Virus record (IMG/VR): IMGVR_UViG_3300032287_004275
Location: 1-56,155 of that record
Source: a virus
DNA length: 56,155 nucleotides
Direction: 5' to 3' (one strand)
Positions 25,490 through 44,916 of this stretch are shown in pieces. The position numbers and the translations under genes were made by a program. Every line of letters starts with the position of its first letter. Position 1 is the first letter of the stretch. The notes beneath the pieces were generated by a model. That model saw only the letters and a list, made by a program, of their open reading frames with translations. It was not told where the DNA came from and made no database searches.

Positions 25490-26239
25490 ATGATAAGTCT
25501 GGTTCAATTGTTAAAAGAGGTTCAAAGCAGCCCTAAAGCTATTTTTATGGCAGGACCTGCTGGATCAGGTAAAACAACTATACTTAATCAATTAGGTCTT
25601 CAAAACTTTAAAGTAATAAACGTAGATGATGTTTATGAAGAACTTTTAAAAACAGAACTAGGTAAAGAAGATTTTGCTTCAATGTCACCTGAAGAACTAT
25701 CCCAAGCCGCTAAATTAATGGGTAAAGCTAGAGTAGTAACTAAAGAAAAAGAAACCCAAGCTTTATCAAATTCAGAAAATGTTATAATTGATGGTACAGG
25801 AGCTGCTTCAAGACCATTACTTAAGAAAAAGGAAGATTTAGAAGCGATGGGGTACGATACGTTTATGATATTACTTTATGTATCACCTATGACATCTTTA
25901 AAACGTAATGCTGAACGTGGTAGAAGTTTACCTACAAGTGCTGTATTAAAGAGTTGGGAAGGTGTAGTAAAAAATATTGATTTATATAAACAAGCATTTG
26001 GAGAAAACATTATTGTTATAAATAATGACCCTAAAAATGCTGATCCATCATTTGATGTTCAATCAATAATTAGTACTTTTCCTCAACCTAAAGGAAAACC
26101 TAAATCATCTGAGGAACTAGCAAAATCAAAAGCAGAAAAAGAAAAAACAAATCAAGAAATAAAATCACTTTTAAATATTGAACGTGAGTTTGATACATTA
26201 GAAGATGCAAAAAATAAAGTAAATGAATTCGTTAGTTAA
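25490..26239 (+). CDS. zeta-toxin-like P-loop kinase with capsid-targeting-like N-terminus (249 aa)
   Basis: A P-loop at 21-30 (AGPAGSGKTT) is followed by VINVDD at 42-47, VIIDGTGA around 97-104 and KRNAERGR at 138-145. This layout is typical of zeta-toxin/polynucleotide-kinase-like small-molecule kinases. The first ten residues, MISLVQLLKE, have the (L/I)-x-E ending shared with many genes in this block, so the enzyme may be packaged in the head. The C-terminal 60 residues are charged and helical. The substrate is unknown. It overlaps the next gene by 17 nt. Confidence 0.7.
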   Translation: MISLVQLLKEVQSSPKAIFMAGPAGSGKTTILNQLGLQNFKVINVDDVYEELLKTELGKEDFASMSPEELSQAAKLMGKARVVTKEKETQALSNSENVIIDGTGAASRPLLKKKEDLEAMGYDTFMILLYVSPMTSLKRNAERGRSLPTSAVLKSWEGVVKNIDLYKQAFGENIIVINNDPKNADPSFDVQSIISTFPQPKGKPKSSEELAKSKAEKEKTNQEIKSLLNIEREFDTLEDAKNKVNEFVS

Positions 26240-27626
26240 ATCAATTCTACAACCTTTATTAGAGCAAGATTCAAAAAATATTGCTCTTATCCCTGGTGGA
26301 TTTAAACCACCTACATTAGGTCATTTTTATTTAGCAGATGAGGTAGCTAAAAATCCTAACATAGATAAAGTAATTGTTCTAATAGGCCATAAAGATAGAG
26401 ATGGTATAACTAAAGAAGAAAGCAAACAAATATGGGATATTTACAAAAAATATCTTCCTTCTAATGTTGAAATCCAATTATCCCAAAATCCTTCCCCAAT
26501 CACAGATGTAAATTCAATTATTAAAAACGACCCAACAAATATGTATTTTCCTGTAGTTGGAATTAGAGGAGAAGAAGATATGGGTGATTTAAAACGTTTT
26601 GATAGTTTAAGAGGAAAATACGATAATTTTGAACCTATTGTAGTTAAAAGCGATGAAGAAGGAGATCGCATAAGCGGCACAAATGCTAGATTAGCTGTTT
26701 TAAACGGTGAATTTGAATCGTTTCAACGTTATCTTCCAACAGAACTCTCAAATAAAGATAAAGATCAAATATGGTCTATTTTAACCAAAACACCTATCCA
26801 GGAAATAATGTATGCTGAACCTAGCAAATTCAGTTACCCTACAATGTTATCTTCACTTATACAATACATGTTAAGTAAAGGAATGGATATTCGACCTTTA
26901 CCTAAAGTGAAATTTGTAGATGATGATATTAAAAATTCCCAAAATTTCTTTGGAAAAACAGCATATTATAATCCAAATGATAAATCTATAGTTTTATACA
27001 CTTATGGACGTCATCCAAAAGATGTAATGCGTTCGTTTGCTCATGAAATGATTCACCATGAACAAAATTGTAATGGTAAATTAGGTAATATTACAACCCA
27101 AAACACAAATGAAGAGGGAGATTTACCTGAAATTGAACGTGAAGCATATGAAAAAGGCAATATGATGTTCCGAAATTGGACAGATACTATTACTGAAGGT
27201 GTTTTAAAAGAAGAACAAGAAGATGATGTAATACTTTACCCTAGTACACTTAAACCAGGAGTAAACATCATGGTTGTCTTTAAAGAAAATGAAAACTATG
27301 AAAACCTATCTCCACTATTTGATGAATACGGGTATGGTTTTTACTACCCAGAACAAAAATCAATAATCATTGATGGTGAGGTATTTGTTAATTCTGATTT
27401 AGATCTTAACGATTTAAAATTTGTTGAAGCACACGAAGTATCTCATTTGCTTTTAGGACATACAGGACCTTATTCAGAAGACGATGAAATAGATGCTGAT
27501 TTAGGAGCATATATTTTATTAAAAGATAAAGGATTGTCTACTGAAAAATTAGAAAAAGAATTTAAAAATAGACATGGGATAGATTTTAGTGAAGAATTAC
27601 TTGAGAGAGTAAAAAACATGTTGTAA
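26223..27626 (+). CDS. nucleotidyltransferase fused to two HExxH peptidase-like regions (467 aa)
   Basis: The N-terminal domain (18-175) has the cytidylyltransferase-fold signatures GGFKPPTLGH at 25-34 and RISGTNAR at 149-156, as in NMN/pantetheine-phosphate adenylyltransferases. A second region has HEMIHHE at 274-280. A third has HEVSH at 404-408 followed by GH at 412-413 and EIDAD at 422-426, as in gluzincin or ImmA-like metalloproteases. The start (LLE at 12-14) and the 323-330 linker (ITE, LKE) carry possible prohead-protease sites, so it may be a packaged polyprotein split into parts. The true substrates are unknown. Confidence 0.7.
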   Translation: MNSLVKSILQPLLEQDSKNIALIPGGFKPPTLGHFYLADEVAKNPNIDKVIVLIGHKDRDGITKEESKQIWDIYKKYLPSNVEIQLSQNPSPITDVNSIIKNDPTNMYFPVVGIRGEEDMGDLKRFDSLRGKYDNFEPIVVKSDEEGDRISGTNARLAVLNGEFESFQRYLPTELSNKDKDQIWSILTKTPIQEIMYAEPSKFSYPTMLSSLIQYMLSKGMDIRPLPKVKFVDDDIKNSQNFFGKTAYYNPNDKSIVLYTYGRHPKDVMRSFAHEMIHHEQNCNGKLGNITTQNTNEEGDLPEIEREAYEKGNMMFRNWTDTITEGVLKEEQEDDVILYPSTLKPGVNIMVVFKENENYENLSPLFDEYGYGFYYPEQKSIIIDGEVFVNSDLDLNDLKFVEAHEVSHLLLGHTGPYSEDDEIDADLGAYILLKDKGLSTEKLEKEFKNRHGIDFSEELLERVKNML

Positions 27627-27644
27627 ATTTACCCAAACTTTAGA

Positions 27645-28244
27645 ATGAAAAAAATACCTACATTATTAGATTTATATAGATTAATCACTGAAGATAAATC
27701 TTTTACATATACCATATATTGTGATATGGATGGTGTGTTATGTAATTTTGATAAAGGATACAAAGATTTAACAGGGATGTCAACTGATGAAGCTAATATG
27801 TATCCAAAACCATTTTTTTGGGAACTCTTTAGAAAAAATTTAGACGAAAAAAATATTAAAGAAAGAAATTTTTGGGCTAATCTACAACCCCAACCAGGAG
27901 CAGAAAAATTATGGAAATTTATTGCTCCATACATGCCAAATATACTTTCTGCCCCTTCTATTAATTTGTCCCATTCTAAAAAAGACAGATATAATCCCGA
28001 AATAAATGAAGCTATTATAGGTAAAAAAATGTGGATTGCAAAAAATTTATCTAATGTAGGAGAAGAAATTTTTGTTCCTGCCCCAGAAAAAGCTAAATTT
28101 GCTGCTCCAAAACATATACTTATAGACGACATGAATAAAAACATAGCATCTTGGAAAGCAGCTGGTGGGATAGGAATTTTACATACTTCAGCAACTGATA
28201 CTATAAAAACTTTAATAAACGATTACGGATTTAATGAAAGATAA
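27645..28244 (+). CDS. HAD-type 5'-nucleotidase-like phosphatase (199 aa)
   Basis: HAD motif I is visible as YCDMDGVLCNFD at 25-36 (nucleophile Asp27, acid/base Asp29). The last motif is ILIDDMNKNI at 159-167 with Asp161/Asp162, followed by AAGGIGILH. This matches NT5C/YqfW-type deoxynucleotidase-like phosphatases. The N-terminus MKKIPTLLDLYRLITE ends in I-T-E at 14-16, matching the capsid-targeting-like pattern. The large antisense ORF over this gene is a shadow. It overlaps the next gene by 11 nt. Confidence 0.78.
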   Translation: MKKIPTLLDLYRLITEDKSFTYTIYCDMDGVLCNFDKGYKDLTGMSTDEANMYPKPFFWELFRKNLDEKNIKERNFWANLQPQPGAEKLWKFIAPYMPNILSAPSINLSHSKKDRYNPEINEAIIGKKMWIAKNLSNVGEEIFVPAPEKAKFAAPKHILIDDMNKNIASWKAAGGIGILHTSATDTIKTLINDYGFNER

Positions 28245-28806
28245 TGTTTTAAAAAAACAGTTCCAAAAACGTGACGTAGAACGTTTACGTAACCTTGTAA
28301 AAGGTAAACATGGTGATCGAACCACAGTTGGAATTGGTTATAATGGAGAAATAACAGAAGACCATAAAGAAGGTGATGTTTGGGAACAAGGTGGAAAAAC
28401 TTGGACAATTAGAGATGGCATCAAAGAGAATATCACTAAATTAGATAAATTTAAAAAAACAGCAGTTCCTTTATTTTGTCCCGAGTGCAAACAAATTATG
28501 GACAAACAATTAGATCCACATTATTTTAAATCGTATAATCATTGTTTAGATTGTAGAACAAAATTTGAAACCCAACTTAAAATAGAAGGTAAGTGGCAGG
28601 ACTATGTTAATTCTACATTTAATGCTGAAATAGATAAACAAATAGAAGAGTATAAAAGTTATTTTGAAAACCTCCTTTCAGAAGGAAATCAAAACTATGT
28701 TTCTGAAAATGGTGAAATTCAAAAATGGGTTGGCGGAATAGATAAAGAGCGTGCTCAAAACGCTTTAGATGAGATGGTTAAACACTTAAATTCTTTAAAA
28801 AAATGA
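28234..28806 (+). CDS. conserved zinc-ribbon-containing phage protein (190 aa)
   Basis: An N-terminal block (residues 14-75, including GDRTTVGIGYNGE and GDVWEQGGKTWTIRDGIK) is followed by a zinc ribbon with Cys82, Cys85, Cys104 and Cys107 (FCPECK and HCLDCR) and a helical C-terminus. I recognise this as conserved in marine T4-like phages, function unknown. It does not carry the (L/I)-x-E N-terminal pattern of its neighbours. Its stop overlaps the next ATG by 4 nt. Confidence 0.65.
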   Translation: MKDNVLKKQFQKRDVERLRNLVKGKHGDRTTVGIGYNGEITEDHKEGDVWEQGGKTWTIRDGIKENITKLDKFKKTAVPLFCPECKQIMDKQLDPHYFKSYNHCLDCRTKFETQLKIEGKWQDYVNSTFNAEIDKQIEEYKSYFENLLSEGNQNYVSENGEIQKWVGGIDKERAQNALDEMVKHLNSLKK

Positions 28807-29420
28807 CAACTGTTGGAGTTACAATAATTGTAGCATTGATTACTGCTGTAGTTGGACCTATAATTGTTAACTGGGTTAAATTAAAAATGGAAAATAAAGA
28901 TGCTTCTACCCCAATGAGAGATGCTCTTGAAACTTCCACACTAATTGATACTCAATTAGAGCAAATAATGGAAGAACTAGAATGTGATCGAATTTGGATA
29001 GCCCAATTCCATAATGGAGGATATTTTTACCCCACAGGAAGATCAATTCAGAAATTTTCTATATTTTACGAAAAATGTACCCCCGAAACCCTAACCATTC
29101 AAAATACATTCCAAAATATTCCAGTATCTTTATTTCCTAGAGTATTATCTAAAGTATACAAAGACAATGAATTGTCAATTGAGGATGTTGAAGTAGAAGA
29201 AGATACATATGGTTTAGAATATATAACAACTCAATTTGGTACTAAATCAATTTGTATGGTTGGTTTACATAGTTTAGATAATCATTTAATAGGTGTACTA
29301 GCTATTTCATTTCTAAATCCCCACCACATCACAAGAGATGAATGGATTTATATAAGACAAAAAGTAGGAGTTGTAGGAACATTACTTTCCGAATATTTAT
29401 ACACGACTAATAAAAAATAA
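28803..29420 (+). CDS. membrane-anchored GAF-like sensory domain protein (205 aa)
   Basis: Residues 4-24 form one transmembrane segment (VTIIVALITAVVGPIIV), then a helix, then a GAF-like domain with DRIWIAQFHNGGYFY at 62-76 and SICMVGLHSLDNHLIGVLAIS near 153-175. GAF domains bind small ligands such as cyclic nucleotides, and this layout resembles a sensor without an output domain. A phage inner-membrane ligand-binding protein could sequester a host signal; that is inference. It ends 3 nt before the next gene. Confidence 0.6.
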   Translation: MTTVGVTIIVALITAVVGPIIVNWVKLKMENKDASTPMRDALETSTLIDTQLEQIMEELECDRIWIAQFHNGGYFYPTGRSIQKFSIFYEKCTPETLTIQNTFQNIPVSLFPRVLSKVYKDNELSIEDVEVEEDTYGLEYITTQFGTKSICMVGLHSLDNHLIGVLAISFLNPHHITRDEWIYIRQKVGVVGTLLSEYLYTTNKK

Positions 29421-29423
29421 AAA

Positions 29424-29978
29424 ATGGATAATTTTGACTTAAAAAAATTCTTAAAAGAAAGTAAAGCTATTGAGAATTTAAACCCTATATTAAAAAAAGA
29501 TAATCTTAGTGAAATCAACATGCGTGATAAAATCAAAGAAATGATTTTAGCTGAACTAGAATTGGATGTTAATGACCCTGATAGAACTGATGCTGCAGAA
29601 GCAAGTGCTTATGATCCACTATATGAAGGCGATGATAAAGAAGAAGAGGATACAGAAAAAGAAGAAGCTTATATAGAGGGAGGTTTTGGTAGTTTTGAAG
29701 AAGCTAAAAAGAAAAAAGGAGAAGAAGTAGAAGATGTTGAAACAACAGATGTTGAAACAACCGATACAACTGAAGAAGTACCTGCTGAGGAAGCACCTGT
29801 AGCAGGTGGTTTAGAAGATGTAGCTGCTAATATGGAGGGTACAGAATCTGAATTAATGGGACACTTAATGGATGCCCTTAAAATTTCTAAAGGAATGGGC
29901 AATGAAAAACTTGAAACACAAATTGGAAATACACTTAAATTTTTCGTTAGCGAATATATTGGAAGTGGACAAGAGTAA
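29424..29978 (+). CDS. acidic internal head protein candidate with capsid-targeting-like N-terminus (184 aa)
   Basis: The N-terminus MDNFDLKKFLKE is nearly identical to that of the unrelated gene at 34239 (MDNFDLRKYLAE), and in both it ends in L-x-E. The middle is highly acidic with Glu-Val-Thr-Asp repeats (VEDVETTDVETTD) and Ala/Pro-rich parts; the C-terminal 60 residues look folded. This is the pattern of T4 internal proteins: a removable tag followed by a packaged body. No family is recognised for the body. Confidence 0.6.
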   Translation: MDNFDLKKFLKESKAIENLNPILKKDNLSEINMRDKIKEMILAELELDVNDPDRTDAAEASAYDPLYEGDDKEEEDTEKEEAYIEGGFGSFEEAKKKKGEEVEDVETTDVETTDTTEEVPAEEAPVAGGLEDVAANMEGTESELMGHLMDALKISKGMGNEKLETQIGNTLKFFVSEYIGSGQE

Positions 29979-30007
29979 ATAATTAAATCTATATAAAAAT
30001 AAAATCT

Positions 30008-30178
30008 ATGAACACAACAGAAATTTTAGAAACAATTAAAGCAGAAGTAGCTATTTTAGAAACAGAACATGCAAAAACTTCAAAAGCAGCTCGCGGTAGA
30101 GCACGTAGTGCAGCTAACACAATTAAAAAATTAGCAGCTGAATTTAAAAAGACTTCAACTGCAGAAGACAAAGCGTAA
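30008..30178 (+). CDS. small histone-H1-like basic protein (56 aa)
   Basis: The ORF at 30008-30178 begins MNTTEILETIKAEVAI. It has an acidic first half and then a basic KAARGRARSAANTIKKLA segment similar in style to Hc1/histone-H1-like proteins of Bacteroidota and their phages. It probably binds nucleic acid. Its TAA overlaps the ATG of the next gene at 30178 by 1 nt. An antisense ORF here is a shadow. Confidence 0.55.
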   Translation: MNTTEILETIKAEVAILETEHAKTSKAARGRARSAANTIKKLAAEFKKTSTAEDKA

Positions 30179-31026
30179 TGCAAAAAAAAAGAACCAATTT
30201 ATCAATTAAGAAATCCAACGGAACTTCCGTTGGATCTTTTGGTTCTTTAAATGAAGGATTTATCCCAACCCCTGAACAATCACAGGAAATAGTAGATAAA
30301 TTTAAATCCATTATCAATACTCGTTTAGATAAATTATATGATACTAAAGGAGCAGATGGGGAATTGTATGCTTACGGTATTGCTGTTAATCAAGTAAAGA
30401 AAAAAACAGAACCAGGTGAAGAAACACCTACAGAAGAAACACCAACAAAAAAACCAATGGATAAAGATCAAAAATTAAAAGAAATGATTCAAGCGGCTTT
30501 GTCTAAGCCATTAGAAGAAAAGAAAAAATCTTTCCCTGATTTAACAGGTGATGGTAAAGTAACCCAAGCTGATATTTTAAAAGCAAGAGGGGTTGAATTA
30601 GATGAAGATCTTGATTTAGGTCACCAAGATGATGAACCACATATGCTTAAAGCTGATCTATATCGTATTGGAAAATATGCTATGGAACTTTATAAAATGG
30701 TTGATCAATTTGAAGGTGAACAAGAAGTTGATTTCCCACATTGGTGGCAATCCAAAATCATTAAAGCTAAAGATATGTTAATCTCAGCAAAACATTATCT
30801 TGATTTTGAATTAAAAGAACCTCAAGTTGATGCTATGGTAGATGTTGCTTCTGAAGAAGAAGCAATTGACGAAATGTCAAAAAAACAAATTAAAAAACGT
30901 GGTGAAATATTTGATGCTTTAAAAGCTAAAGGTATGTCTGATGAAAAAGCAGGTAAAATTGCTACATCAACAGCAATGAAGAAAAAAATTAAAGAAGCTA
31001 TTTTAGCTAAACTTAAAAATAAATAA
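30178..31026 (+). CDS. conserved phage protein with EF-hand/dockerin-like loop (282 aa)
   Basis: Residues 121-132 (DLTGDGKVTQAD) form a canonical calcium-loop pattern with Asp, Thr, Asp, Lys, Thr and Asp in the right positions. The following region (GHQDDEPHMLKADLYRIGKY and FPHWWQSKIIKAKDML) is conserved in marine T4-like phages. The C-terminus repeats charged helices ending in KKKIKEAILAKLKNK. A terminator-like hairpin at 30213-30235 lies within its first codons, so the start deserves care; there is no in-frame downstream ATG until about residue 94. Confidence 0.6.
   Translation: MQKKRTNLSIKKSNGTSVGSFGSLNEGFIPTPEQSQEIVDKFKSIINTRLDKLYDTKGADGELYAYGIAVNQVKKKTEPGEETPTEETPTKKPMDKDQKLKEMIQAALSKPLEEKKKSFPDLTGDGKVTQADILKARGVELDEDLDLGHQDDEPHMLKADLYRIGKYAMELYKMVDQFEGEQEVDFPHWWQSKIIKAKDMLISAKHYLDFELKEPQVDAMVDVASEEEAIDEMSKKQIKKRGEIFDALKAKGMSDEKAGKIATSTAMKKKIKEAILAKLKNK
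30213..30240 (+). terminator. terminator-like hairpin within 5' end of a coding region
   Basis: ATCCAACGGA 30213-30222 pairs perfectly with TCCGTTGGAT 30226-30235 across a 3-nt loop, followed by CTTTTGG. It lies just after the histone-like gene stop and inside the first codons of the 30178 gene. It could be an attenuator separating the two. Confidence 0.45.
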
Positions 31027-31490
31027 TGACTCGCGACCAACTAAAAAATAGAATCAGAGGTTTAATAAAACAGGTTTATACTGTAAACGCAGTAACACCT
31101 GAAGAAGCTGCTCAATATGATGAGTTAACTAAATTTCCTGAACTTAAAGCAGTTATAGTTGATTTATTGACAGATGAATATGATAATTTTTTAGATTCAA
31201 TTGATTGGGTAGCACCACGTCCTACTACATTTAGAATTAATTTAAAAAATGGTCAAGATTTTTATTTAATGTATGGCAAACGTAGTTGGATTGCCCAAGT
31301 TCAAGGTAAAAAGTACTATTTACTTAATTTACCAGAAGAAGAAAGAGCAGCAGAAGCCATTGCTCGTATTTTAAGATACGGAACTAAAGAAGAAACAACT
31401 GGAGAAGAAGCAGGATTTGAACCACCATCAACTGAAACACCAGCTGAAACCCCAGCTGAAACCCCACCAACAGAAGAAACCCCAGCATAA
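31026..31490 (+). CDS. hypothetical phage protein with Pro/Glu/Thr tail (154 aa)
   Basis: Residues 1-105 look folded, with TFRINLKNGQDFYLMYGKRS and WIAQVQGKKYYLLN as beta strands. The last about 45 residues are repeats of Glu-Thr-Pro-Ala type (ETPAETPAETPP). The N-terminus MTRDQLKNRIRGLIKQ resembles the tag of its neighbours but lacks the final Glu of the (L/I)-x-E site. It overlaps the neighbouring genes by 1 nt at each end. No family is recognised. Confidence 0.55.
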   Translation: MTRDQLKNRIRGLIKQVYTVNAVTPEEAAQYDELTKFPELKAVIVDLLTDEYDNFLDSIDWVAPRPTTFRINLKNGQDFYLMYGKRSWIAQVQGKKYYLLNLPEEERAAEAIARILRYGTKEETTGEEAGFEPPSTETPAETPAETPPTEETPA

Positions 31491-32716: not shown

Positions 32717-32726
32717 TATTTATAAA
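32716..32726 (+). promoter_or_regulatory. late promoter-like element
   Basis: AATATTTATAAAC ends 1 nt before the ATG at 32728. This tight spacing leaves no conventional leader, so it could start a leaderless or downstream-serving transcript, or the element may have another role. Confidence 0.4.
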
Positions 32727-32727
32727 C

Positions 32728-33402
32728 ATGGAACGCCTAAGAAAATTAATAAAAGAAGTACTTTCCACACCACCAAAAAAAGACAAATGTAATTGTGGTT
32801 GTCACGATTGTGATAATGTAGGTAATGCTGGTGTAGTATTAAATGAAAGTATTGCCCCAAAGCAGATCTTATCTGAAAATCTGCGATATCATGTGGAAAA
32901 TAAATTACCACTAACCGAAAACACATTCCGTTATGGTTCCGAATCTTTCCTTAATTTATGGGCAGAAGCTCGTTCTTTGTATTTACGTGAAATAATTCAT
33001 GTAAATGATGATGATAAGGAAATTTTAGAGGAAACTGATTTAGGTAACTTTGGTATATATGAAAACCAAAAAGTACCTTTAGATTTACTTTTACTTGAAA
33101 GTGAAGAACTTGAAGAAGCTGAAGGTAAAAAGAAAACCCCACCAATTGGAAAACCAAAACGGGGTGGACCCAAAAAATTCTACGTTTACGTAAGGGATAA
33201 AGGCAAAGTTAAAAAAGTATCTTTTGGAGACACAACAGGCCTTTCAGCTAAAATAAACAACCCAGAGGCACGTCGTGCATTTGCAAAACGTCATGATTGT
33301 GCTAATAAAACAGATAGAACAAAAGCATCCTATTGGAGCTGTCGCTTACCAAGATATGCTAAATTATTAGGTTTAAAATCATCCTTTTCAGGATTTTGGT
33401 GA
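32728..33402 (+). CDS. Cys-rich putative head protein with capsid-targeting-like N-terminus (224 aa)
   Basis: MERLRKLIKE (residues 1-10) ends in I-K-E. A CNCGCHDCDN cluster at 21-30 could bind metal. Residues 45-115 carry ILSENLRYHVENKLPLTENT, then FRYGSESFLNLWAEARSLY, conserved in marine T4-like phages. The C-terminal 80 residues (FYVYVRDKGKVKKVSFGDT, ARRAFAKRHDCANKTD and SYWSCRLPRYAKLLGL) are another conserved phage module. Together these look like separate modules behind a removable tag. No enzymatic function is known to me. Confidence 0.6.
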   Translation: MERLRKLIKEVLSTPPKKDKCNCGCHDCDNVGNAGVVLNESIAPKQILSENLRYHVENKLPLTENTFRYGSESFLNLWAEARSLYLREIIHVNDDDKEILEETDLGNFGIYENQKVPLDLLLLESEELEEAEGKKKTPPIGKPKRGGPKKFYVYVRDKGKVKKVSFGDTTGLSAKINNPEARRAFAKRHDCANKTDRTKASYWSCRLPRYAKLLGLKSSFSGFW

Positions 33403-33415
33403 TAAAAAATAAATT

Positions 33416-33781
33416 ATGGAAAATTGCGCAAAATTAGTATCCTTCTTGTTTCACTCTAGAACACAAGCACACGTATTTCACTTACAAACAACTTCATTTG
33501 CTGAACATAAAGCATTAAATGACTATTATGATGGTATAGTTGATTTAGTAGATGGTTTAGTTGAATCTTATCAAGGTAAATATGGTGTTTTAAGAGGATA
33601 TTCAAATTACCCACTTTTAGAGTACACAGACAAAAATCAAGTAATAACTTATTTTGAGGCTTTGGTTAGTAAAGTTTGTGCTTTGAGAGAAGGAGTTACA
33701 GATTCTTACATACAAAATCAAATTGATACTGTTATGGAATTAATAGAATCAACTCTATACAAATTAAAATGTCTAAGCTAA
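33416..33781 (+). CDS. ferritin-like/Dps-like helical protein (121 aa)
   Basis: It shows four helices with a conserved start, FLFHSRTQAHVFHLQTTSF (11-29) and HKALNDYYDGIVDLVDGLVE (31-50). His and acidic residues are arranged as in Dps/ferritin-like four-helix bundles. Such proteins bind iron and protect DNA. I recognise it from marine phages, where it is annotated as a domain of unknown function. It overlaps the next gene by 13 nt. Confidence 0.55.
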   Translation: MENCAKLVSFLFHSRTQAHVFHLQTTSFAEHKALNDYYDGIVDLVDGLVESYQGKYGVLRGYSNYPLLEYTDKNQVITYFEALVSKVCALREGVTDSYIQNQIDTVMELIESTLYKLKCLS

Positions 33782-34236
33782 TAAATTTAGTTAGAGAAGT
33801 CCTACAAGAGGAAAAAGAAAAACGCGATAGATGTTTACGCATTGCTGATCGCAAGTTCGATAAACCTTCCGCTTATAAATCTGGCGCTGTAGTTAGATGT
33901 CGTAAGGGAGATATCTGGAAAGGCATAAAAGAAACAGATGACCCACAATCAGGTAAAGCTGCTCCTTATGGATCAGGATTTTCTAAAGTTACAGAAGAAT
34001 TAATTCTTGAAAAAGTAAAGGAAACATTACGCACTTGGTTTTCACGTAAAGGTGAACCTGGTAAAAAAGGTGGATGGGTTGATTGTAACACTTGCCGTGA
34101 AGTAGACGGTAAAACAAAATGTAAAGCATGTGGTAGGGAAAAAGGAGAAAAACGCTCAAAATATCCTTCATGTCGTCCTACACCTGCACAATGTAAATCA
34201 CCTGGTAAAGGTGAAAAATGGGGTAAAACAAAATAA
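33769..34236 (+). CDS. two-module Cys/Lys-rich protein with capsid-targeting-like N-terminus (155 aa)
   Basis: MSKLINLVREVLQE (1-14) ends in L-Q-E. The first module (RCLRIADRKFDKPSAYKSG, VVRCRKGDIWKG) and the second (ETLRTWFSRKGEPGKKGGW, then VDCNTCREVDGKTKCKACGR and SKYPSCRPTPAQCKSPG) are both basic with conserved cysteines. They resemble small nucleic-acid-binding modules seen in T4-like phages. The linker between them contains another L-x-E (LILE), so processing into two pieces is possible. Confidence 0.6.
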   Translation: MSKLINLVREVLQEEKEKRDRCLRIADRKFDKPSAYKSGAVVRCRKGDIWKGIKETDDPQSGKAAPYGSGFSKVTEELILEKVKETLRTWFSRKGEPGKKGGWVDCNTCREVDGKTKCKACGREKGEKRSKYPSCRPTPAQCKSPGKGEKWGKTK

Positions 34237-34238
34237 AT

Positions 34239-34676
34239 ATGGATAATTTTGATTTAAGAAAATATTTAGCTGAAGGTAAATTATATGAAGCTGCTATGGC
34301 TTGCCCTTTACCTACTCAAGATTTAGAACTTAACACTAAAAATAGAGACTCATCTATTAAAGCAGATTATATTAAATATGGTCCTTTAAATGTTGATGAA
34401 CCTGGAGATTATTGGGATGAATTAGCAGAACATTGGGACACAACAGTTGAAGCTGCCAAACAATCTTTATGTGCTAATTGTGCAGCATTTGATATTTCTC
34501 CAAGAATGGAAGATTGTATGCCTGGCCCATTATCAGATGAAGACGGTAGATTAGGATATTGTTGGATGCATAGTTTCAAATGCCACTCAGCTCGTACTTG
34601 TAGAACTTGGGCTAAAGGTGGTCCTATTGTAAAAGATAGTATATCTTACGAATGGCAAGAACGTAAAGAAAAATGA
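34239..34676 (+). CDS. Cys-rich head protein candidate with capsid-targeting-like N-terminus (145 aa)
   Basis: MDNFDLRKYLAE (1-12) is nearly the same as the start of the 29424 protein and ends in L-A-E, exactly as the T4 internal-protein tag ends in I-A-E. The body has six cysteines in a conserved layout: Cys78, Cys81, Cys93, Cys108, Cys115 and Cys121 (CANCAAFD, GYCWMHSFKCHSARTCRTW), suggesting a metal or iron-sulfur site. I recognise the body from other T4-like phages; it overlaps the next gene by 4 nt. Confidence 0.6.
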   Translation: MDNFDLRKYLAEGKLYEAAMACPLPTQDLELNTKNRDSSIKADYIKYGPLNVDEPGDYWDELAEHWDTTVEAAKQSLCANCAAFDISPRMEDCMPGPLSDEDGRLGYCWMHSFKCHSARTCRTWAKGGPIVKDSISYEWQERKEK

Positions 34677-34933
34677 CCCCATACACCGACATAGAAGTTA
34701 CAGACAAATATATTATTCGTGAGTTTAACGAAAATATAGATCCAATTGAATTGCTATGGCATCGTGATAACGAAGATAGAACAGTTGAAATTTTAGAAGA
34801 CACAGATTGGAAACTTCAATTAGATAATAGCTTGCCTACCTCACTTAAAGAACGTATATTTATACCAAGACACGAGTGGCATAGAGTCATTAAAGGAACA
34901 GGAACATTAAAGTTAAAGATACATAAATCATGA
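34673..34933 (+). CDS. small cupin-like conserved phage protein (86 aa)
   Basis: It has IREFNENIDPIELLWHRDNED near the start and IFIPRHEWHRVIKGTGTLKL near the end, a beta-barrel cupin-like pattern with His residues (RHEWHR) that could bind metal. I recognise it as conserved in marine T4-like phages. No (L/I)-x-E tag is present. It overlaps both neighbours by 4 nt, so it is translationally coupled within the operon. Confidence 0.6.
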   Translation: MTPYTDIEVTDKYIIREFNENIDPIELLWHRDNEDRTVEILEDTDWKLQLDNSLPTSLKERIFIPRHEWHRVIKGTGTLKLKIHKS

Positions 34934-35208
34934 AAAAAACCGATTTAAAAAATACAATTAAAGAAGAAATTAAAAAAATCTTATCTGAAGAAAGAGACCC
35001 ACAACAAATGGCTTTAATTCGTGGTGCTTTAGCTCAAATTAAAGAAGCTGGAGACGAAGCATTAAATGCTATGACTAGAAATCTTTCAGCAGATGAGGCA
35101 CAGCAATTGAATTTGCTCATCGCAAAAGGGATAGGAAAAACATTTCCTAGAACATCCCCAGATTCCCCAGCTGCTAATCCATATTTAACCCCTGGAACAA
35201 CAGATTAA
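34930..35208 (+). CDS. small head protein candidate with capsid-targeting-like N-terminus (92 aa)
   Basis: MKKTDLKNTIKEEIKKILSE (1-20) has I-K-E at 10-12 and L-S-E at 18-20. The start closely resembles that of the 10593 protein (MKSTDFKKIIKE). The rest is a helix (ALIRGALAQIKEAGDEALNA) and a Pro-rich tail (TSPDSPAANPYLTPG). It fits a small packaged internal protein; no family is recognised. Confidence 0.55.
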   Translation: MKKTDLKNTIKEEIKKILSEERDPQQMALIRGALAQIKEAGDEALNAMTRNLSADEAQQLNLLIAKGIGKTFPRTSPDSPAANPYLTPGTTD

Positions 35209-35259
35209 CATTTAGCCAGTTCCTAATTATAAAAGATAAAAAAATTTAAAATTAAAAAA

Positions 35260-35796
35260 ATGAAAAAAGAAACTTTACGTATGCAGATGTTGGCGGGTAT
35301 CATTACTGAAAGTCAATATAAAGAAAAAATTCAAGAAAATAAAGTTGAAGGAATTGATGTTTCCCAAGTAAAAGATTTGATGAGTGATCCTAATGTTAAA
35401 AAAATGGCAGCTCAACTTAAATCAGACCCTAAATCTTTAAAAAATGCAATTAAATTTATTGCTGACCATAGTAAAGATAATACTTCTTTAGATGAAGAAC
35501 AATCCCTTGAAGAAGGATCCCTTAAAGATAGAATCAATTCAATTCTTTTAGGATCAGGAATTGCCGCTCCTATAGGATGGTTATTTGGATTTATGGCAGA
35601 TTCACAGTCTGTTGATGCTAGTTTACATGGCTTAGCAACTGCATTAACAGCAGCAATAATGATTGGTGGGATGGTTGCTCTTGGTACAACTCATGATAAA
35701 ACTCCTCAAAATCCAACAAAACAAGATATGAATGAGGTTGAAATAAGTGTTGAAGACCAAATTCAAAAAATTATTGATTTAGGAAAATCAATGTAA
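35260..35796 (+). CDS. membrane-active head protein candidate (178 aa)
   Basis: The N-terminus MKKETLRMQMLAGIITE ends in I-T-E (15-17), and a second site I-Q-E follows at about 24-26. A helical region (DVSQVKDLMSDPNVKKMAAQL) precedes two hydrophobic segments at about 96-112 and 122-142 (LLGSGIAAPIGWLFGF and GLATALTAAIMIGGMVALG). A packaged protein with two membrane segments could act in DNA delivery through the inner membrane. The strong terminator at 35847 follows, closing the cargo operon. Confidence 0.55.
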   Translation: MKKETLRMQMLAGIITESQYKEKIQENKVEGIDVSQVKDLMSDPNVKKMAAQLKSDPKSLKNAIKFIADHSKDNTSLDEEQSLEEGSLKDRINSILLGSGIAAPIGWLFGFMADSQSVDASLHGLATALTAAIMIGGMVALGTTHDKTPQNPTKQDMNEVEISVEDQIQKIIDLGKSM

Positions 35797-35846
35797 TATA
35801 TAGACAGATTCATAGCCTGTCGACTTAAAAAAAAATTAGTAGAGCT

Positions 35847-35880
35847 GTGGCCTAATCTTTGGATTAGGTCACTTTTTTTT
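35847..35880 (+). terminator. strong intrinsic terminator
   Basis: An 11-bp stem (35847-35857 with 35862-35872, core CCTAATC/GATTAGG, one G-T pair) has a 4-nt loop and is followed by eight T. It closes the cargo operon ending with the 35260 gene, before the oxidoreductase gene. Confidence 0.85.
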
Positions 35881-35904
35881 GTATCTTTAAATATAAAATA
35901 GAAT

Positions 35905-37227
35905 ATGGATAAAAAAATAGTAATAGTAGGAGCCGGTGTAGCAGGTGTAAATGCTGCAACTAAATTAGTGGATAATGGATACCCTGGAGAACTAATCACA
36001 GTAATTGATATGGGTAAAGATCCATACAACCGTAAACCTGAAGAAGTAATGACAGGATTTTTAGGTGCTGGAGGATGGAGTGATGGTAAATTAACTTACC
36101 ACACAGCAATTGGAGGACAATTATCCAAATACTGTGGTGAGGATAAAGCAATGGAATTGATGGATCAAGTGATTACCAATTTTAAACGTTTCCACCCTAA
36201 ACCAGAGGAAGTACAATGTTCAAATCCTGAATCTGAACCTGAATTTATTAAACCATATTTTGGTTTACGATTATTTCCTGTATGGCACGTTGGAACAGAT
36301 TATCTATCTGAAATTGCTAAAAATTGGTACAATTATTTAGTATCTAAAGGTGTTAAATTTGAATGGGGAGCTAAAGTTTATGCTATTGATTTTGAAAATA
36401 ATATAGTTAAATTTAAAAACCAAACCCACCCTGAACTTCAAGCTAATATACAATATGATGAACTTATATTTGCAGTAGGCAAATCAGGTATTGACTTTGC
36501 CCAACAGTTAGCTAACCAATACGAACTCCCAGATGAACCTAAATCAGTACAAATTGGTGTTCGATTTGAAGCACCACAAGAACACTTCCAAAAACTAATT
36601 GATATTTCATATGACTTTAAGTTATATAGAAAATTTGATGATGAAGGTGTTTCGTTACGTTCGTTTTGTACAAACAATAATGCTGCTTATGTTGCTGTAG
36701 AAGAAACATATGGAGATCATTCATATAACGGACATGCTAAGAAAGACGAAGCATATAGAAACAATATGACCAATTTTGGTATATTAATGGAAATTAATGG
36801 TATTGAAGATCCATTTGCTTGGTCACGTAATGTAGTTTCAAAATTGCAATTTAGAGGAACCGGTTTATATTATAGCCCAACTCGTACACCCTCAACTACA
36901 TCTGAAGGTAATGAAGTAACATCTTACCAAATTGAATTTTTAGATGGAGTAAGATTTGTAATGGATGGTTATTTCCAATATGTAGAAGATTTTATTGAAG
37001 ATATGAAAAAAGTATTCCCAACATTAAAAGATGACTGGGGAATTTATATACCAGAGGTAAAATATTTGTCACCTGAGGTTAAAGTAAATTATGAAAATCT
37101 TAGTTTGATCGATTACCCTAACGTGTACTTTGCTGGAGATGCTCTTTCCGCTCGTGGCATTAGCGTCTCAGGTGCGCAGGGTATTTACATAGCAGAAAGT
37201 CTTTTAAAGGAAAATAACGAGGAATAA
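35905..37227 (+). CDS. FAD-dependent oxidoreductase (440 aa)
   Basis: The N-terminus has a dinucleotide-binding fold, IVIVGAGVAGVNAATKL (5-21), followed by MGKDPYNRKPEEVMTGFLG and AGGWSDGKLTYH. The C-terminus has VYFAGDALSARGISVSGAQG, typical of FAD-binding oxidoreductases related to NAD(FAD)-utilising dehydrogenases. The substrate cannot be inferred. It is isolated from the cargo operon by a terminator and is followed by a homing endonuclease gene, so it may be an accessory acquisition. No capsid-targeting-like tag is present. Confidence 0.75.
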   Translation: MDKKIVIVGAGVAGVNAATKLVDNGYPGELITVIDMGKDPYNRKPEEVMTGFLGAGGWSDGKLTYHTAIGGQLSKYCGEDKAMELMDQVITNFKRFHPKPEEVQCSNPESEPEFIKPYFGLRLFPVWHVGTDYLSEIAKNWYNYLVSKGVKFEWGAKVYAIDFENNIVKFKNQTHPELQANIQYDELIFAVGKSGIDFAQQLANQYELPDEPKSVQIGVRFEAPQEHFQKLIDISYDFKLYRKFDDEGVSLRSFCTNNNAAYVAVEETYGDHSYNGHAKKDEAYRNNMTNFGILMEINGIEDPFAWSRNVVSKLQFRGTGLYYSPTRTPSTTSEGNEVTSYQIEFLDGVRFVMDGYFQYVEDFIEDMKKVFPTLKDDWGIYIPEVKYLSPEVKVNYENLSLIDYPNVYFAGDALSARGISVSGAQGIYIAESLLKENNEE

Positions 37228-37246
37228 CAGTTTCTGGGGGTGTTAC

Positions 37247-37260
37247 ATATTTATTATTAT
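37247..37260 (+). promoter_or_regulatory. late promoter-like element
   Basis: CATATTTATTATTAT directly abuts the ATG at 37261 of the homing endonuclease gene, suggesting late or leaderless expression of that gene. Confidence 0.4.
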
Positions 37261-37956
37261 ATGAATAATTATTATATTTACTTTCACAAAAATCCCTTAA
37301 CCCAACAAATATTTTATGTTGGGTTAGGTTCTCATGTTATTTACCAAAAATATAAAAGGGCAGAAGATCTTAAAAAAAGAAATTCTCATTATAAGAATTA
37401 CATTAAAAAATATGGTGATCCTATTATTTCAATAATGCATGATAATTTAACTCAAGAAGAAGCATGTTTATTAGAAACCCAATATATAATTCAATTTGGA
37501 AGAAAACATTATGAAATTAATGGAATTTTAGTAAATCAAAGTTTAGGGGGGCAAGGAGGTAAACAAGGGGTTGAAGTAACTTCTGAAACTCGCCTAAAAC
37601 AATCTAATAAACTAAAAGGAATCCCTAAACCTGAAGGTTTTGGAGATAAGATTAAAAATAATAGAGATCATAAAGCCGCTAGTATAAAATCTGGAATTTC
37701 AAACAAAAATAGAGGCCATTACGATAAAGACAGTATTAGAAATAAAAAAATATCACAAAAGCTAAAAGGAAGAAAAGTAGATTGGACTGGAGATCTAATT
37801 CTCCAATTTGATACCCAAGGAAACTTTATCCAAGAATGGCCTAGCATAAGACAAGCAGGATTAGAAATCAAAGGAACTAGTGGTGAAACCATTAGAAAAT
37901 GCCTTAAGGGTTTACAAAAAACAGCTTATGGATTTGCTTGGAAATATAAAAAATAA
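37261..37956 (+). CDS. GIY-YIG homing endonuclease with NUMOD motifs (231 aa)
   Basis: An N-terminal GIY-YIG domain (YYIYFHKNPLTQQIFYVGLGS, residues 4-24) continues with LTQEEACLLETQYI, which could carry the catalytic Glu. NUMOD3-like segments follow (SETRLKQSNKLKG, KISQKLKGRK). A C-terminal NUMOD1/HTH-like part (DTQGNFIQEWPSIRQAGLE, ...GETIRKCLKGLQKTAYGFAW) binds DNA. This is the classic layout of free-standing phage homing endonucleases. ATG 37261 is preferred to the longer start at 37240, whose extra residues would read through the promoter-like element. Confidence 0.85.
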   Translation: MNNYYIYFHKNPLTQQIFYVGLGSHVIYQKYKRAEDLKKRNSHYKNYIKKYGDPIISIMHDNLTQEEACLLETQYIIQFGRKHYEINGILVNQSLGGQGGKQGVEVTSETRLKQSNKLKGIPKPEGFGDKIKNNRDHKAASIKSGISNKNRGHYDKDSIRNKKISQKLKGRKVDWTGDLILQFDTQGNFIQEWPSIRQAGLEIKGTSGETIRKCLKGLQKTAYGFAWKYKK

Positions 37957-37961
37957 TTAAT

Positions 37962-38087
37962 ATGAAAAAAGAAAAAAAACAACTTACAGAATCTGAAGTA
38001 AAACAGATTGATCAAGATATTTTATTCATCCGTCAAGCTATTCAAAAAGCTAAAAATGCATTAAAAAAACATGGAAAGAATATCTAA
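37962..38087 (+). CDS. small basic helical protein (41 aa)
   Basis: The ORF from ATG 37962 to TAA 38085-38087 begins MKKEKKQLTESEVKQIDQDI and ends in KNALKKHGKNI. It is a single charged helix and overlaps the following gene by 17 nt. No family is recognised. Confidence 0.4.
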   Translation: MKKEKKQLTESEVKQIDQDILFIRQAIQKAKNALKKHGKNI

Positions 38088-38328
38088 ATTACTTGCTGAA
38101 GTATTAGCTTCTAATTATATTAAAACTATAGAATCTTTATTAACCCAAATTAATTGGGATGAATTAGATAGTGATTTTTTAGATATAAAAGAAGCATGTC
38201 ATGTTTTAATTAAAAATATTTCTAGTATAGGAGAATATGAAGGAGAAAATGCTTCAAAATACTTAAGATTATTAAAAGATGAAGCTAAAGATCTTATATA
38301 TGTTTTAAAAAGTTTAACAAATTATTAA
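38071..38328 (+). CDS. small head protein candidate with capsid-targeting-like N-terminus (85 aa)
   Basis: MERISKLLAE (1-10) ends in L-A-E and resembles MERLRKLIKE of the 32728 protein. The remaining 75 residues form helices (IKTIESLLTQINWDELDSDFL, ASKYLRLLKDEAKDLIYVLK). It is probably a small packaged protein; its body is not recognised. Confidence 0.5.
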   Translation: MERISKLLAEVLASNYIKTIESLLTQINWDELDSDFLDIKEACHVLIKNISSIGEYEGENASKYLRLLKDEAKDLIYVLKSLTNY

Positions 38329-38343
38329 AAATAAAATAAAGTT

Positions 38344-38883
38344 ATGAAAATAGGATTTTGTGGAACAATGTCTGTAGGTAAAACTACATTAGTTAATGCT
38401 TTAAAAGAACAACCTGAATTTAAAGACTATGAATTTAGAACAGAACGTTCAAAATATTTACGTGATTTAGGTATACCTTTAAATACTGATTCAACTGTAA
38501 AAGGTCAATTTGTATTTTTAGCTGAACGTGCTTCTGAATTATTTCATAAAAATGTTATTACTGATAGAACAGTAATTGATGTAATGGCTTTTACACGTTT
38601 AGCTGAATCAATTCCATATTATGTTGGAGATGAAATATGTCAAGCGGCTTCACATTTAATAAGAGAATATGACTATATATTCTATATTTCACCTAAAGGA
38701 GTTGAAATAGAGGATAACGGTGTTAGAACAACAGATGCAGAATATAGAAAAGAAGTTGACAAAGAAATTAAAAATCTGTTAAACAAGTATGGTCATAAAA
38801 ATCAAAGAATAGTTAAATTAAAAGGTAGTACCGAGGAGAGAATACAAAAAGTTAAACAAACGCTATTTTCACAATATTTATAA
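38344..38883 (+). CDS. NadR-like P-loop kinase (179 aa)
   Basis: A Walker A motif GTMSVGKTTL (7-16), an acidic helix EFRTERSKYL and VITDRTVIDVMAF at 71-83 match the AAA/NadR-type ribosylnicotinamide kinase-like ATPases found in T4-like phages. They phosphorylate nucleosides or their analogues; the exact substrate is not established here. It has AATAAAG shortly upstream and is followed by the late promoter-like element overlapping its stop. An NMNAT-like domain in the 26223 gene suggests a possible shared pathway. Confidence 0.7.
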   Translation: MKIGFCGTMSVGKTTLVNALKEQPEFKDYEFRTERSKYLRDLGIPLNTDSTVKGQFVFLAERASELFHKNVITDRTVIDVMAFTRLAESIPYYVGDEICQAASHLIREYDYIFYISPKGVEIEDNGVRTTDAEYRKEVDKEIKNLLNKYGHKNQRIVKLKGSTEERIQKVKQTLFSQYL

Positions 38884-38888
38884 ATAAA
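38874..38888 (+). promoter_or_regulatory. late promoter-like element
   Basis: A perfect ATATTTATAAATAAA lies 10 nt before the ATG at 38899, overlapping the stop of the kinase gene. Confidence 0.6.
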
Positions 38889-38898
38889 CTATACTAAA

Positions 38899-39813
38899 AT
38901 GAAAAAAACTCGTTTACTCGAAATCGTACGTGAAGAAATTGCTTTCGCTTTAAGAGAAGGTGAAGCAGAAGAAAAAGCAGCAAAAGCTGCTGCCCTTAAG
39001 GCTATTGACGCAAAACAAAAAGCATTAGATGCTGAAAGAAAAGATACTATGAAGGGTGGTGCTCTTGAAGAAGATCAATTAAATGAAATTGAGCAGTTAG
39101 CTGAAATGGCTAGTATAGTTCAATTAAAAACTCAATTAGAGAAACAAGGCAAAACGGGTGAATTAGAAGCAGTTAAAGCAGCCGAAAAAGCTACCATTGA
39201 TAAATTAAAACAAAACCCAGTATTCTCAGGTGAAGGTAAAAATGCAAGATTAAAAGGATATGTGTCTGCATTGAAAAAAGAACTTAAAGCAGAACATGAT
39301 ATTAATCTACAAGATTTATTAACCAAAGTTATGTTAGATGCAGAAGCTGCTGGAGAAAAATTTAAAGATGATATTGCAACAAATACAATTGAAAAAGACG
39401 CTGCAGCACAAGTATTAGGTACTGAAAAAGGTCAACGTGGTAGAAAAGCAGATCCTAACAAACCGGAAAAATCAGAACCAACAGGTAAAAAAGGAAGACC
39501 AGCAGGTTCAGGTGAGAAAAAAGCAGTTAGAACTCCTGGAGATGATGGATTTGATAAAGTAGAATACGTTGATGTAGAAGATGCTGAAGGACCTTCATCT
39601 AAAGAACTAGAGAAAGACGAAACTGCAAAAGAATTAGGTTCTACACCTGAAGAGAAAAAAGTTAAATTCAATCAATTTTTAGCATCTGTTAGGAAAAATA
39701 AAGAAGATAAAGCTAAAATTGATGGTATATTAAAACTAGCAAAAGATAAATTTAAATTTACCAAAGCTATGCTTGATGATTTAAAACGAGCAGCTGGTAG
39801 AGGTGTTGAATAA
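38899..39813 (+). CDS. putative DNA-binding internal head protein (304 aa)
   Basis: MKKTRLLEIVREEIAFALRE (1-20) ends in L-R-E, matching the capsid-targeting pattern, with further sites near 10-12. The body is Ala/Lys/Glu-rich and helical, and 178-206 carries AT-hook-like basic stretches (GQRGRKADP and KKGRPAGSGEKK). This suggests a packaged DNA-binding protein. It is transcribed from the late promoter-like element at 38874 and its stop overlaps the next ATG by 1 nt. Confidence 0.6.
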   Translation: MKKTRLLEIVREEIAFALREGEAEEKAAKAAALKAIDAKQKALDAERKDTMKGGALEEDQLNEIEQLAEMASIVQLKTQLEKQGKTGELEAVKAAEKATIDKLKQNPVFSGEGKNARLKGYVSALKKELKAEHDINLQDLLTKVMLDAEAAGEKFKDDIATNTIEKDAAAQVLGTEKGQRGRKADPNKPEKSEPTGKKGRPAGSGEKKAVRTPGDDGFDKVEYVDVEDAEGPSSKELEKDETAKELGSTPEEKKVKFNQFLASVRKNKEDKAKIDGILKLAKDKFKFTKAMLDDLKRAAGRGVE

Positions 39814-44058: not shown

Positions 44059-44916
44059 ATGCAAGTAAAACATTCAAAGTATAAAAATACTGGTATACTC
44101 TTTGAACTCCTAGTTCGACAAATCACTACAGATACACTAGAAGGGAAAGATTCTCTAGCAAAAGATATACTTAAAAAGTATTTCGTTAAAACGGAATTAG
44201 GTCGTGAATATAGATTGTATGAAACATTGTTGAAGAAAACTACACTAACTGAAACAAAAGCTAATGTTGTGGTTTCTACTTTAATTGATTCTTCTAAAAC
44301 ATTAAATAGAGGAGTACTTAAAAGACAAAAATATAATTTAATTAATGAAATACAAAAAAGTTACGATTTAAATACGTTCTTTAACCATAAATTACCTAAT
44401 TATAAAGTATACGCTGCTTTTTATACATTATTGGAAATTACCCATTCTCAAACTCCAATAGATCCTGAACAAACTATTTCAAATAAAGTAACAATTTTAG
44501 AACATTTAACAGCAGCCCAAATTAAAGGGGATGTTGTGAAAGATGAAGTGTTAGAGGAAATAGAAAACTCAGATAAAGACATTAAGTTTCTTGCATATAA
44601 AATATTAATGGAGAAATTTAATGACAAGTATAACGATTTCAACCTTAACCAAAAATTAATCCTAAAAGAATATATTAATTCAGTAGATAATACACCACGT
44701 TTAAAAGAATTTTACACAAATAAAATAAACGAAATTAAAACTGAATTAAAAAATATAAACAAAAACACTAAAAACCCAGTTACAAAAATTAAAATTAACG
44801 AGATTATTTCTGTAATTAACCCACCAGCAAAAAATGCTAAAATAACAGACAATGATTTAGTTGATTTACTTCAGTATTGTGATCTAATTAATGAACTAGA
44901 AGCTGTAAATGGATAA
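44059..44916 (+). CDS. conserved helical protein of head operon (285 aa)
   Basis: The N-terminal block KYKNTGILFELLVRQITTDTL and GKDSLAKDILKKYF is conserved in marine T4-like phages at this position, between portal and protease genes. The rest is helical and Lys- and Asn-rich. It may be a prohead core or assembly protein like T4 gp67/gp68 by position, though no clear similarity is visible. It overlaps the next gene by 8 nt. Confidence 0.65.
   Translation: MQVKHSKYKNTGILFELLVRQITTDTLEGKDSLAKDILKKYFVKTELGREYRLYETLLKKTTLTETKANVVVSTLIDSSKTLNRGVLKRQKYNLINEIQKSYDLNTFFNHKLPNYKVYAAFYTLLEITHSQTPIDPEQTISNKVTILEHLTAAQIKGDVVKDEVLEEIENSDKDIKFLAYKILMEKFNDKYNDFNLNQKLILKEYINSVDNTPRLKEFYTNKINEIKTELKNINKNTKNPVTKIKINEIISVINPPAKNAKITDNDLVDLLQYCDLINELEAVNG

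Follow-up and report, generated by a model that had tools for sequence, protein, structure and literature searches.

Unrelated proteins in a phage clade share N-terminal tags resembling the capsid-targeting sequences of T4

Experiments on phages T4 and P1 have established capsid-targeting tags for a few proteins. In T4, the internal proteins IPI, IPII and IPIII and the protein Alt begin with a short segment that ends in (L/I)xE and is processed by gp21, and IPII and IPIII carry the same tag (MKTYQEFIAE) on different bodies. Glu-to-Asp changes at the cut site of IPIII reportedly leave packaging intact but prevent the cut. For P1 DarB, the N-terminal 30 residues are enough to package a reporter (PMC9024508). 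In phiKZ, 201phi2-1 and SPN3US, the prohead protease processes many head proteins (PMC5694885).

Here we describe what appears to be a modular, exchangeable set of such tags in the window (the whole stretch of 56,155 nucleotides analysed). As in T4, there is a gp21-family protease and a head module. The gp20, gp21 and gp23 proteins are T4-like, with gp23 34% identical to that of RM378, and the phages are probably related to the 'Far-T4' group (Roux 2015).

The tags are 10-20 residues long and fall into at least four classes (A, B, C and short). The tagged and tag-like starts in the window are the following, with a slash marking the predicted cut:

10593..10652, + strand: class-B-like start; conserved protein adjoining baseplate genes, packaging doubtful
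25490..25519, + strand: short-class tag MISLVQLLKE/; body a P-loop kinase (25490-26239)
26223..26264, + strand: probable tag MNSLVKSILQPLLE/Q; body a cytidylyltransferase/NMNAT-like protein with metallopeptidase (26223-27626)
27645..27692, + strand: tag MKKIPTLLDLYRLITE/D; body a 5'-deoxyribonucleotidase, NT5C (27645-28244)
29424..29459, + strand: class A tag MDNFDLKKFLKE/; body an acidic protein, probable core protein (29424-29978)
32728..32757, + strand: short-class tag MERLRKLIKE/; body 32728-33402
33769..33810, + strand: tag MSKLINLVREVLQE/E; body a DUF5872-like protein (33769-34236)
34239..34289, + strand: class A tag MDNFDLRKYLAE/GKLYE/; body a Cys-rich protein (34239-34676)
34930..34989, + strand: class B tag MKKTDLKNTIKEEIKKILSE/; body 34930-35208
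35260..35310, + strand: class C tag MKKETLRMQMLAGIITE/S, motif as in the scaffold C-terminus; body 35260-35796
38071..38100, + strand: short-class tag MERISKLLAE/; body 38071-38328
38899..38958, + strand: class B tag MKKTRLLEIVREEIAFALRE/, ending at Glu20; body a probable core protein (38899-39813)
44909..44950, + strand: tag-like start MDKIKEIIRKKLKE/; body a head-module protein (44909-45364)
45361..45402, + strand: tag-like start MKKTLQDQYLLIKE/; body a head-module protein, probable core protein (45361-47097)

Every N-terminus quoted in the initial annotation is in place; this includes the longer one at 38899 and the further matches given at 10593, 44909 and 45361. The tags at 26223, 27645, 33769 and 35260 are additions to its list. 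Within the block 25490-39813, the tag is absent from the proteins starting at 28234, 28803, 31490, 33416, 35905, 37261 and 38344.

The (L/I)xE tripeptide is weak evidence alone, since it occurs in 28 of 64 N-termini compared to 16.8±3.0 internally, and in phage immuto, whose genome is complete, its Z is only 2.2. The enrichment that had been proposed as a check is thus present, but too mild to decide the matter alone. We also compared proteins with unrelated bodies in 13 related records, counting pairs with a BLOSUM62 score of at least 30 in windows along the protein. There are 299 such pairs at residues 2-12. The number falls to 29 for windows starting at residue 16 and to 10 at residue 26, and is 0-3 for starts at residues 36-71. 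The same test recovered only the known pair IPII/IPIII in T4, our positive control, and 0-3 proteins in seven other control phages. This sharing of whole tags is decisive and, judged on sequence, far above chance; it makes a stronger case for one short segment on unrelated bodies than the initial annotation had claimed.

The strict patterns for the tags occur in 99 of the 1177 proteins of the clade, compared to 7 of 1436 proteins from eight control phages, and a class-B profile has 38 N-terminal matches in the clade and none in the controls. That Lys/Glu/Leu-rich N-terminal helices, which often hold (L/I)xE, gave rise to the pattern by chance would fit the weak enrichment of the bare tripeptide, but is refuted by the sharing test, runs against the profile and strict-pattern matches, and is hardly credible. 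In Syn9, HTVC008M and Melnitz, the T4-type tag pattern is found in few proteins and revealed no shared tag set like that of this clade. A tblastn search of phages with a 20-residue tag, which is too short a query, gave no match.

The class-B profile scores 44 bits at 34930, 30.7 bits at 38899 and 21.5 bits at 10593. The terminase N-terminus DLKQAIREEY also resembles class B, so that tag resemblance alone is no proof of packaging. The listing of 10593 as tagged stands as far as its class-B-like start goes, but packaging may not follow for a conserved protein beside baseplate genes.

Tags are also swapped on a given body. In the 34239 family, at least five unrelated tags are found on one body, each ending in (L/I)xE right before it. 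When the first 19 residues are aligned, Glu17 is the sole invariant position and Leu15 the sole nearly invariant one. Across four families, the site is kept at the junction in 52/52 (the 34239 family), 33/34, 48/49 (homologs of 33769, at most 9 residues before the body) and 28/36 (NT5C) distinct N-termini. A segment ending in a gp21-type (L/I)xE directly before the body is thus the rule, only partly so in NT5C, where several homologs are tagged without a clean site. Relatives hold untagged and fused forms of NT5C, and homologs in other phages begin directly at the domain. Class A is found on at least 11 body clusters, the tag of 32728 is common to 33769 and 38071, and the 29424 orthologs G004 and G008 have a scaffold-like tag in place of class A.

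In the G002 array, the genes lie in tandem and their tag codons are largely identical. The tags there are alike in DNA too, which makes part of the sharing recent copying. These features would suit shared N-termini that are mere remnants of gene duplication, the bodies having since diverged, and that play no part in targeting. Such an origin is nevertheless very unlikely, given several unrelated tags on one body, a cut-site Leu and Glu fixed throughout, and untagged relatives of bodies such as NT5C.

For individual genes, the domain matches begin at residue 12 in the kinase at 25490 (Zeta_toxin), residue 14 in 26223 (Cytidylyltransferase) and residue 21-24 in 27645 (NT5C). In the kinase, Leu4 and Glu10 are invariant in 21 homologs, and the AF2 model has a folded body with a strand from residue 16 and a low-confidence tag helix at 4-11; the model of 34239 (mean pLDDT 41.6) is too low to use. 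The tag is kept in 5/5 members of the 38899 family, relatives of 44909 retain start and site, and orthologs of 45361 retain the start. A Pfam search with the orphan tagged proteins from the G002 array and with two ADP-ribosyltransferase-looking proteins gave no useful matches.

The head module contains the proposed processing enzyme and, next to it, a probable source of one tag class:

47099..47731, + strand: gp21-family head maturation protease (phrog_207, E 3e-51)
47920..49158, + strand: putative gp22-type scaffold, between protease and major capsid protein; orthologs in 13/13 records
49111..49155, + strand: scaffold C-terminal peptide SNDVFARMQKLAGLI, after PIVE/
49196..50890, + strand: gp23-type major capsid protein (phrog_138, E 1e-67)

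The gp21-like protease named in the initial annotation is confirmed by its phrog_207 match and by the catalytic His (GELxHP) and Ser (SSRGxGS) blocks, which align with T4 gp21. A family search with the scaffold gave no match, and we assign it from synteny and orthologs.

As far as the sequences tell, tag class C (RMQKLAGIITE/S) copies the peptide at the C-terminus of this scaffold, a match that is new here. The motif lies at the extreme C-terminus of the scaffold in 12 of 13 records, and (L/I/V)xE precedes the tail peptide in 19 of 22 distinct tails. Its 23 matches (0.16 expected) comprise 10 N-terminal tags, 12 scaffold C-termini and 1 elsewhere. The class C tag would probably bind the same partner as the scaffold peptide, with a protease site dividing peptide from body in both. 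Cargo loading may thus be scaffold mimicry, in which the tag takes the prohead docking site of the scaffold peptide and the same protease releases both; we give this idea an even chance. If true, different tag classes would reproduce different docking peptides of the core or shell, and the genome of any such phage could reveal which cargo it carries. In herpesviruses, the capsid protein is bound by a C-terminal peptide of the scaffold, which a related protease removes at maturation. To our knowledge, no cargo enzymes there borrow that peptide.

Amphipathic helices placed right at the beginning of a gene, as these tags are, would also be expected if they directed proteins elsewhere (membrane, replication compartment) or served as translation leaders. 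Such roles are very unlikely, with one class equal to the scaffold C-terminus, conservation falling on the cut-site residues, and upstream DNA that is not common to the tagged genes.

We consider it likely that the tags target proteins to the capsid in the same way as those of the T4 internal proteins. The amphipathic segment would bind the prohead core, and the protein attached to it would thereby be enclosed during shell assembly. The gp21-type protease would then cut after (L/I)xE at the tag end, leaving the mature protein free in the head and able to enter the next host along with the DNA. The tags are exchangeable modules that very probably route many unrelated proteins into the head with the DNA. 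The modular T4-like capsid-targeting tags of the initial annotation, with cutting by a gp21-type protease, are well supported by sharing, swapping, constant site position, scaffold identity and cyanophage tags, while core binding, packaging, cleavage and delivery are what we infer from them for this clade.

Experimental support, though indirect, comes from related phages. By mass spectrometry, S-SM1 virions contain the citidylyltransferase T4-GC190 (PMC3037559), a nucleotidyltransferase homolog of the 26223 protein, and we found that it starts with a T4-like tag (MKKFSAFLNE/A). The contents of S-CREM2 virions include a SAM hydrolase, a kinase, a cytidylyltransferase and two hypothetical proteins (PMC10665884, with no mention of tags). 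All five carry T4-like tags, an association with hypergeometric P = 6e-4 assuming no tagged non-virion protein. Among open-access papers, we found none on such tags in this group or S-CREM2 and no virion proteomics for this clade.

The proteins at 29424, 38899, 44909 and 45361 are conserved and often acidic or low-complexity, or lie in the head module, and look like core or assembly proteins; units resembling class B are present within proteins of this kind as well. In T4, gp22, gp67 and gp68 are cleaved to fragments (PMC5694885). The tagged proteins could by analogy be mainly prohead core or assembly proteins that are cut up and lost, and not effectors delivered to the host. We regard this as a less likely but serious alternative: a part in assembly is not obvious for the kinase, deoxyribonucleotidase and nucleotidyltransferase bodies, and similar tagged enzymes occur in mature cyanophage virions. 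The 'large enzyme cargo' of the initial annotation is unproven: the recognisable tagged enzymes in the window are only those at 25490, 26223 and 27645.

With capsid targeting as the preferred reading, the tags form a modular set readable from sequence, and packaged proteins could become predictable in uncultured phages. The match between a tag class and the scaffold C-terminus offers a concrete, testable answer to what tags bind. Tags would also explain the recurrent kinases and nucleotidyltransferases of cyanophage virions: they carry an address.

Among known systems, P1 DarB likewise has an N-terminal packaging signal, but in P1 the Dar N-termini yielded no consensus. The propeptides of ejection proteins in phiKZ, 201phi2-1 and SPN3US are mostly longer than 100 residues and are not reported as shared modules. 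In S-SM1 and S-CREM2, the virion cytidylyltransferase and kinase carry tags of the type MKxFxxFLxE. Compared to T4, the tag classes described here differ in sequence but match in kind and cut site, and the system is best read as T4-type capsid targeting, expanded and modular. T4 has one tag type on few proteins, whereas here there are at least four classes, 12 to 22 strict matches in the three best-covered genomes and an array of tags, and one of the classes copies the C-terminus of the scaffold.

The window (56 kb) is a contig of an uncultured T4-like myophage that encodes a terminase, a portal, a gp21-type protease and a major capsid protein. Among isolates, Flavobacterium phage immuto comes closest, sharing 59% identity in the portal and 58% in the capsid; Microcystis phage Mel-JY01 and then Rhodothermus phage RM378 come next. 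The 'Far-T4' group formerly had RM378 as its sole reference genome (PMC4360716), so the clade of the window probably belongs to it. The window was set against the complete immuto genome, the near-complete contigs G002 and G003 and nine shorter contigs, with T4, Syn9, HTVC008M, Melnitz, Mel-JY01, RM378, phiM9 and crAss001 as controls.

The N-termini that the initial annotation likened to T4 capsid-targeting tags ending in the gp21-type site (L/I)xE are all quoted correctly. The tripeptide is enriched above background, though only moderately (28 of 64 N-termini in the window compared to 16.8±3.0; Z is 2.2 for immuto, 2.8 for T4). Judged by sequence, the strong signal is the whole tag rather than (L/I)xE. 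When 474,430 protein pairs with unrelated bodies were compared, a score of at least 30 was reached by 299 over residues 2-12 and by 0-3 from residue 36 on, which bears out the proposal that the same tag sits on unrelated bodies. Inside single genomes, this test retrieves 17 proteins in immuto, 15 in G002 and 9 in G003, including a few signal peptides or tail proteins. Inside T4 it retrieves exactly one pair, IPII/IPIII, with the textbook capsid-targeting sequence, and 0-3 proteins in the other controls. Strict tag patterns match 99 of 1177 clade proteins versus 7 of 1436 control proteins. The 54-aa T4 gp61.1, of unknown function (gene 61.1, L086:18966-19130), starts with MKTFKEFIKE/D (slash, predicted cut), resembling the T4 capsid-targeting sequence, and is possibly a further internal protein. 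The tags fall into these classes:

Tag class A: M[DE]NF[DN]LKK[FY]LxE[NG]KLLxE
Tag class B: MKKSELKQLIKEEIxKxL[NS]E, 20 residues
Tag class C: MNKEFLRMQKLAGIITE
Short tag class: MxxLxxLLKE, 10 residues

The class B profile has 38 N-terminal matches in the clade and none in the controls. The N-terminus of the window terminase (DLKQAIREEYIKCA, 40523-40560) also looks like a class B tag; a terminase is not expected inside the head, and this start is a caution for tag searches. Short-class tags precede the bodies YHYTTFKNGLKIL... and SDRVWHLTT... at locus L516 and at Mel-JY01 60276-62056 (L165); by eye these bodies look like ADP-ribosyltransferases, and a Pfam search of them gave no match.

G002 carries a run of eleven small ORFs with tags (97666-102496, L091-L092), most of them dissimilar to one another, flanked by a clamp-loader-like gene and groEL. 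Their tag DNA is similar and the DNA immediately upstream is dissimilar, a pattern that copying of the tag itself as a cassette would produce.

Tag exchange can be followed in homologs gathered for four window proteins. The body of the Cys-rich protein 34239 (CPxxTQxLELNTKNRD) is found behind five or more mutually unrelated tags: MDNFDLRKYLAEGKLYE/A, MGIELKKKKQLIERLNKRLLSE/A, MSFNYKKYIQDNPLLKE/Q, MKSFFKFIKE/Q and, in contigs G004 and G007, MINLLDILSE/A. Over the first 19 aligned residues of this family, Glu17 is the sole invariant position and Leu15 the sole nearly invariant one, matching P1 and P3 of the predicted gp21 site. Counting distinct N-termini, which are mutually related and hence not independent events, (L/I)xE lies at most 9 residues before the body in 52/52 (34239 family), 33/34 (kinase), 48/49 (DUF5872-like) and 28/36 (NT5C deoxyribonucleotidase). 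NT5C also occurs untagged in relatives and other phages, and in some relatives as a C-terminal fusion to the metallopeptidase encoded upstream (L370, L381, L384, L397). In the predicted kinase model, the body is confident (mean pLDDT 88.9), the fold begins at residue 16, and residues 4-11 form a low-confidence helix; zeta-type and polynucleotide kinases have the most similar solved folds. A zeta-like kinase of pelagiphage HTVC008M (106562-107224, L151:6562-7224) has the tag-like start MIPFILKE/G.

Against an expectation of 0.16, the 310,000 residues of clade protein contain 23 copies of the class C motif: 10 in N-terminal tags, 12 at the extreme C-terminus of the gp22-type scaffold, and one elsewhere. 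The Mel-JY01 scaffold also bears it. The protease site follows the motif in tags (IITE/S) and precedes it in the scaffold (PIVE/S, 19 of 22 distinct tails). N-termini account for 24-25 copies of the short-class motif; of the roughly 6-7 copies found elsewhere, five lie in the scaffold, although this is a Leu- and Glu-rich protein. Thus at least one tag class seems to derive from the scaffold, a hint at what the tag binds. The sole internal class C copy (G003 19155-20189, residue 140) lies directly behind the site LNE (KALNESFLKMQKLAGVITEAQ), resembling a tag enclosed in a fused protein. In T4, the propeptide end of gp23 (FGSFLTE/A, residues 59-66; L105:4945-6510) resembles the tag YQEFIAE/A, so T4 tags may copy the shell propeptide.

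Tag sharing, swaps, the fixed site and the scaffold match can be read directly from the sequences. With T4 capsid targeting as the model (PMC9026906), the tag would dock its protein in the prohead core, the shell would close around both, the protease would cut after the Glu, and the freed body would remain in the head, from which it could be injected. By analogy with T4, docking, cutting, packaging and injection would most likely occur in the window clade. Of the large enzyme cargo initially proposed, three tagged window proteins are recognisable as enzymes (zeta/PNK-like kinase, nucleotidyltransferase-metallopeptidase, deoxyribonucleotidase). Other tagged proteins resemble components of the core, and the tags therefore probably outnumber the cargo proteins. 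An FAD/NAD(P)-binding oxidoreductase-like gene inside the block (35905-37227) carries no tag.

Experiments on related phages lend indirect support: similar tags are found on cyanophage virion enzymes. The citidylyltransferase (T4-GC190) of S-SM1 was detected in purified virions (PMC3037559). The S-SM1 gene annotated GC 190 starts with MKKFSAFLNE/A, very like MKTYQEFIAE/A of T4, and shows distant homology to the nucleotidyltransferase region of window protein 26223 (E 4e-4). Among the virion proteins of S-CREM2 (PMC10665884), T4-like tags lie inside the first ten residues of the SAM hydrolase, kinase, cytidylyltransferase and two hypothetical proteins, and at residue 24 of the Cas9-like protein; none was found in the virion tail proteins. 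Five strict tags in 52 virion proteins give P about 6e-4, assuming none among non-virion proteins, a value that is indicative only, as the pattern was picked after these proteins had been seen. A looser pattern matched one other S-CREM2 ORF, which lacks the strict form. The S-CREM2 authors treat the carried enzymes, not tags, and mention possible contamination (PMC10665884).

The tag principle is already known, and the authors of a review have proposed it as a possible general route by which T4-like phages package diverse proteins (PMC9026906). Judged by the literature searched, the novelty lies in the modular multi-class tag set, in tag swaps that leave the cut site fixed, in a tag class derived from the scaffold and in the presence of tags on virion enzymes of cyanophages.
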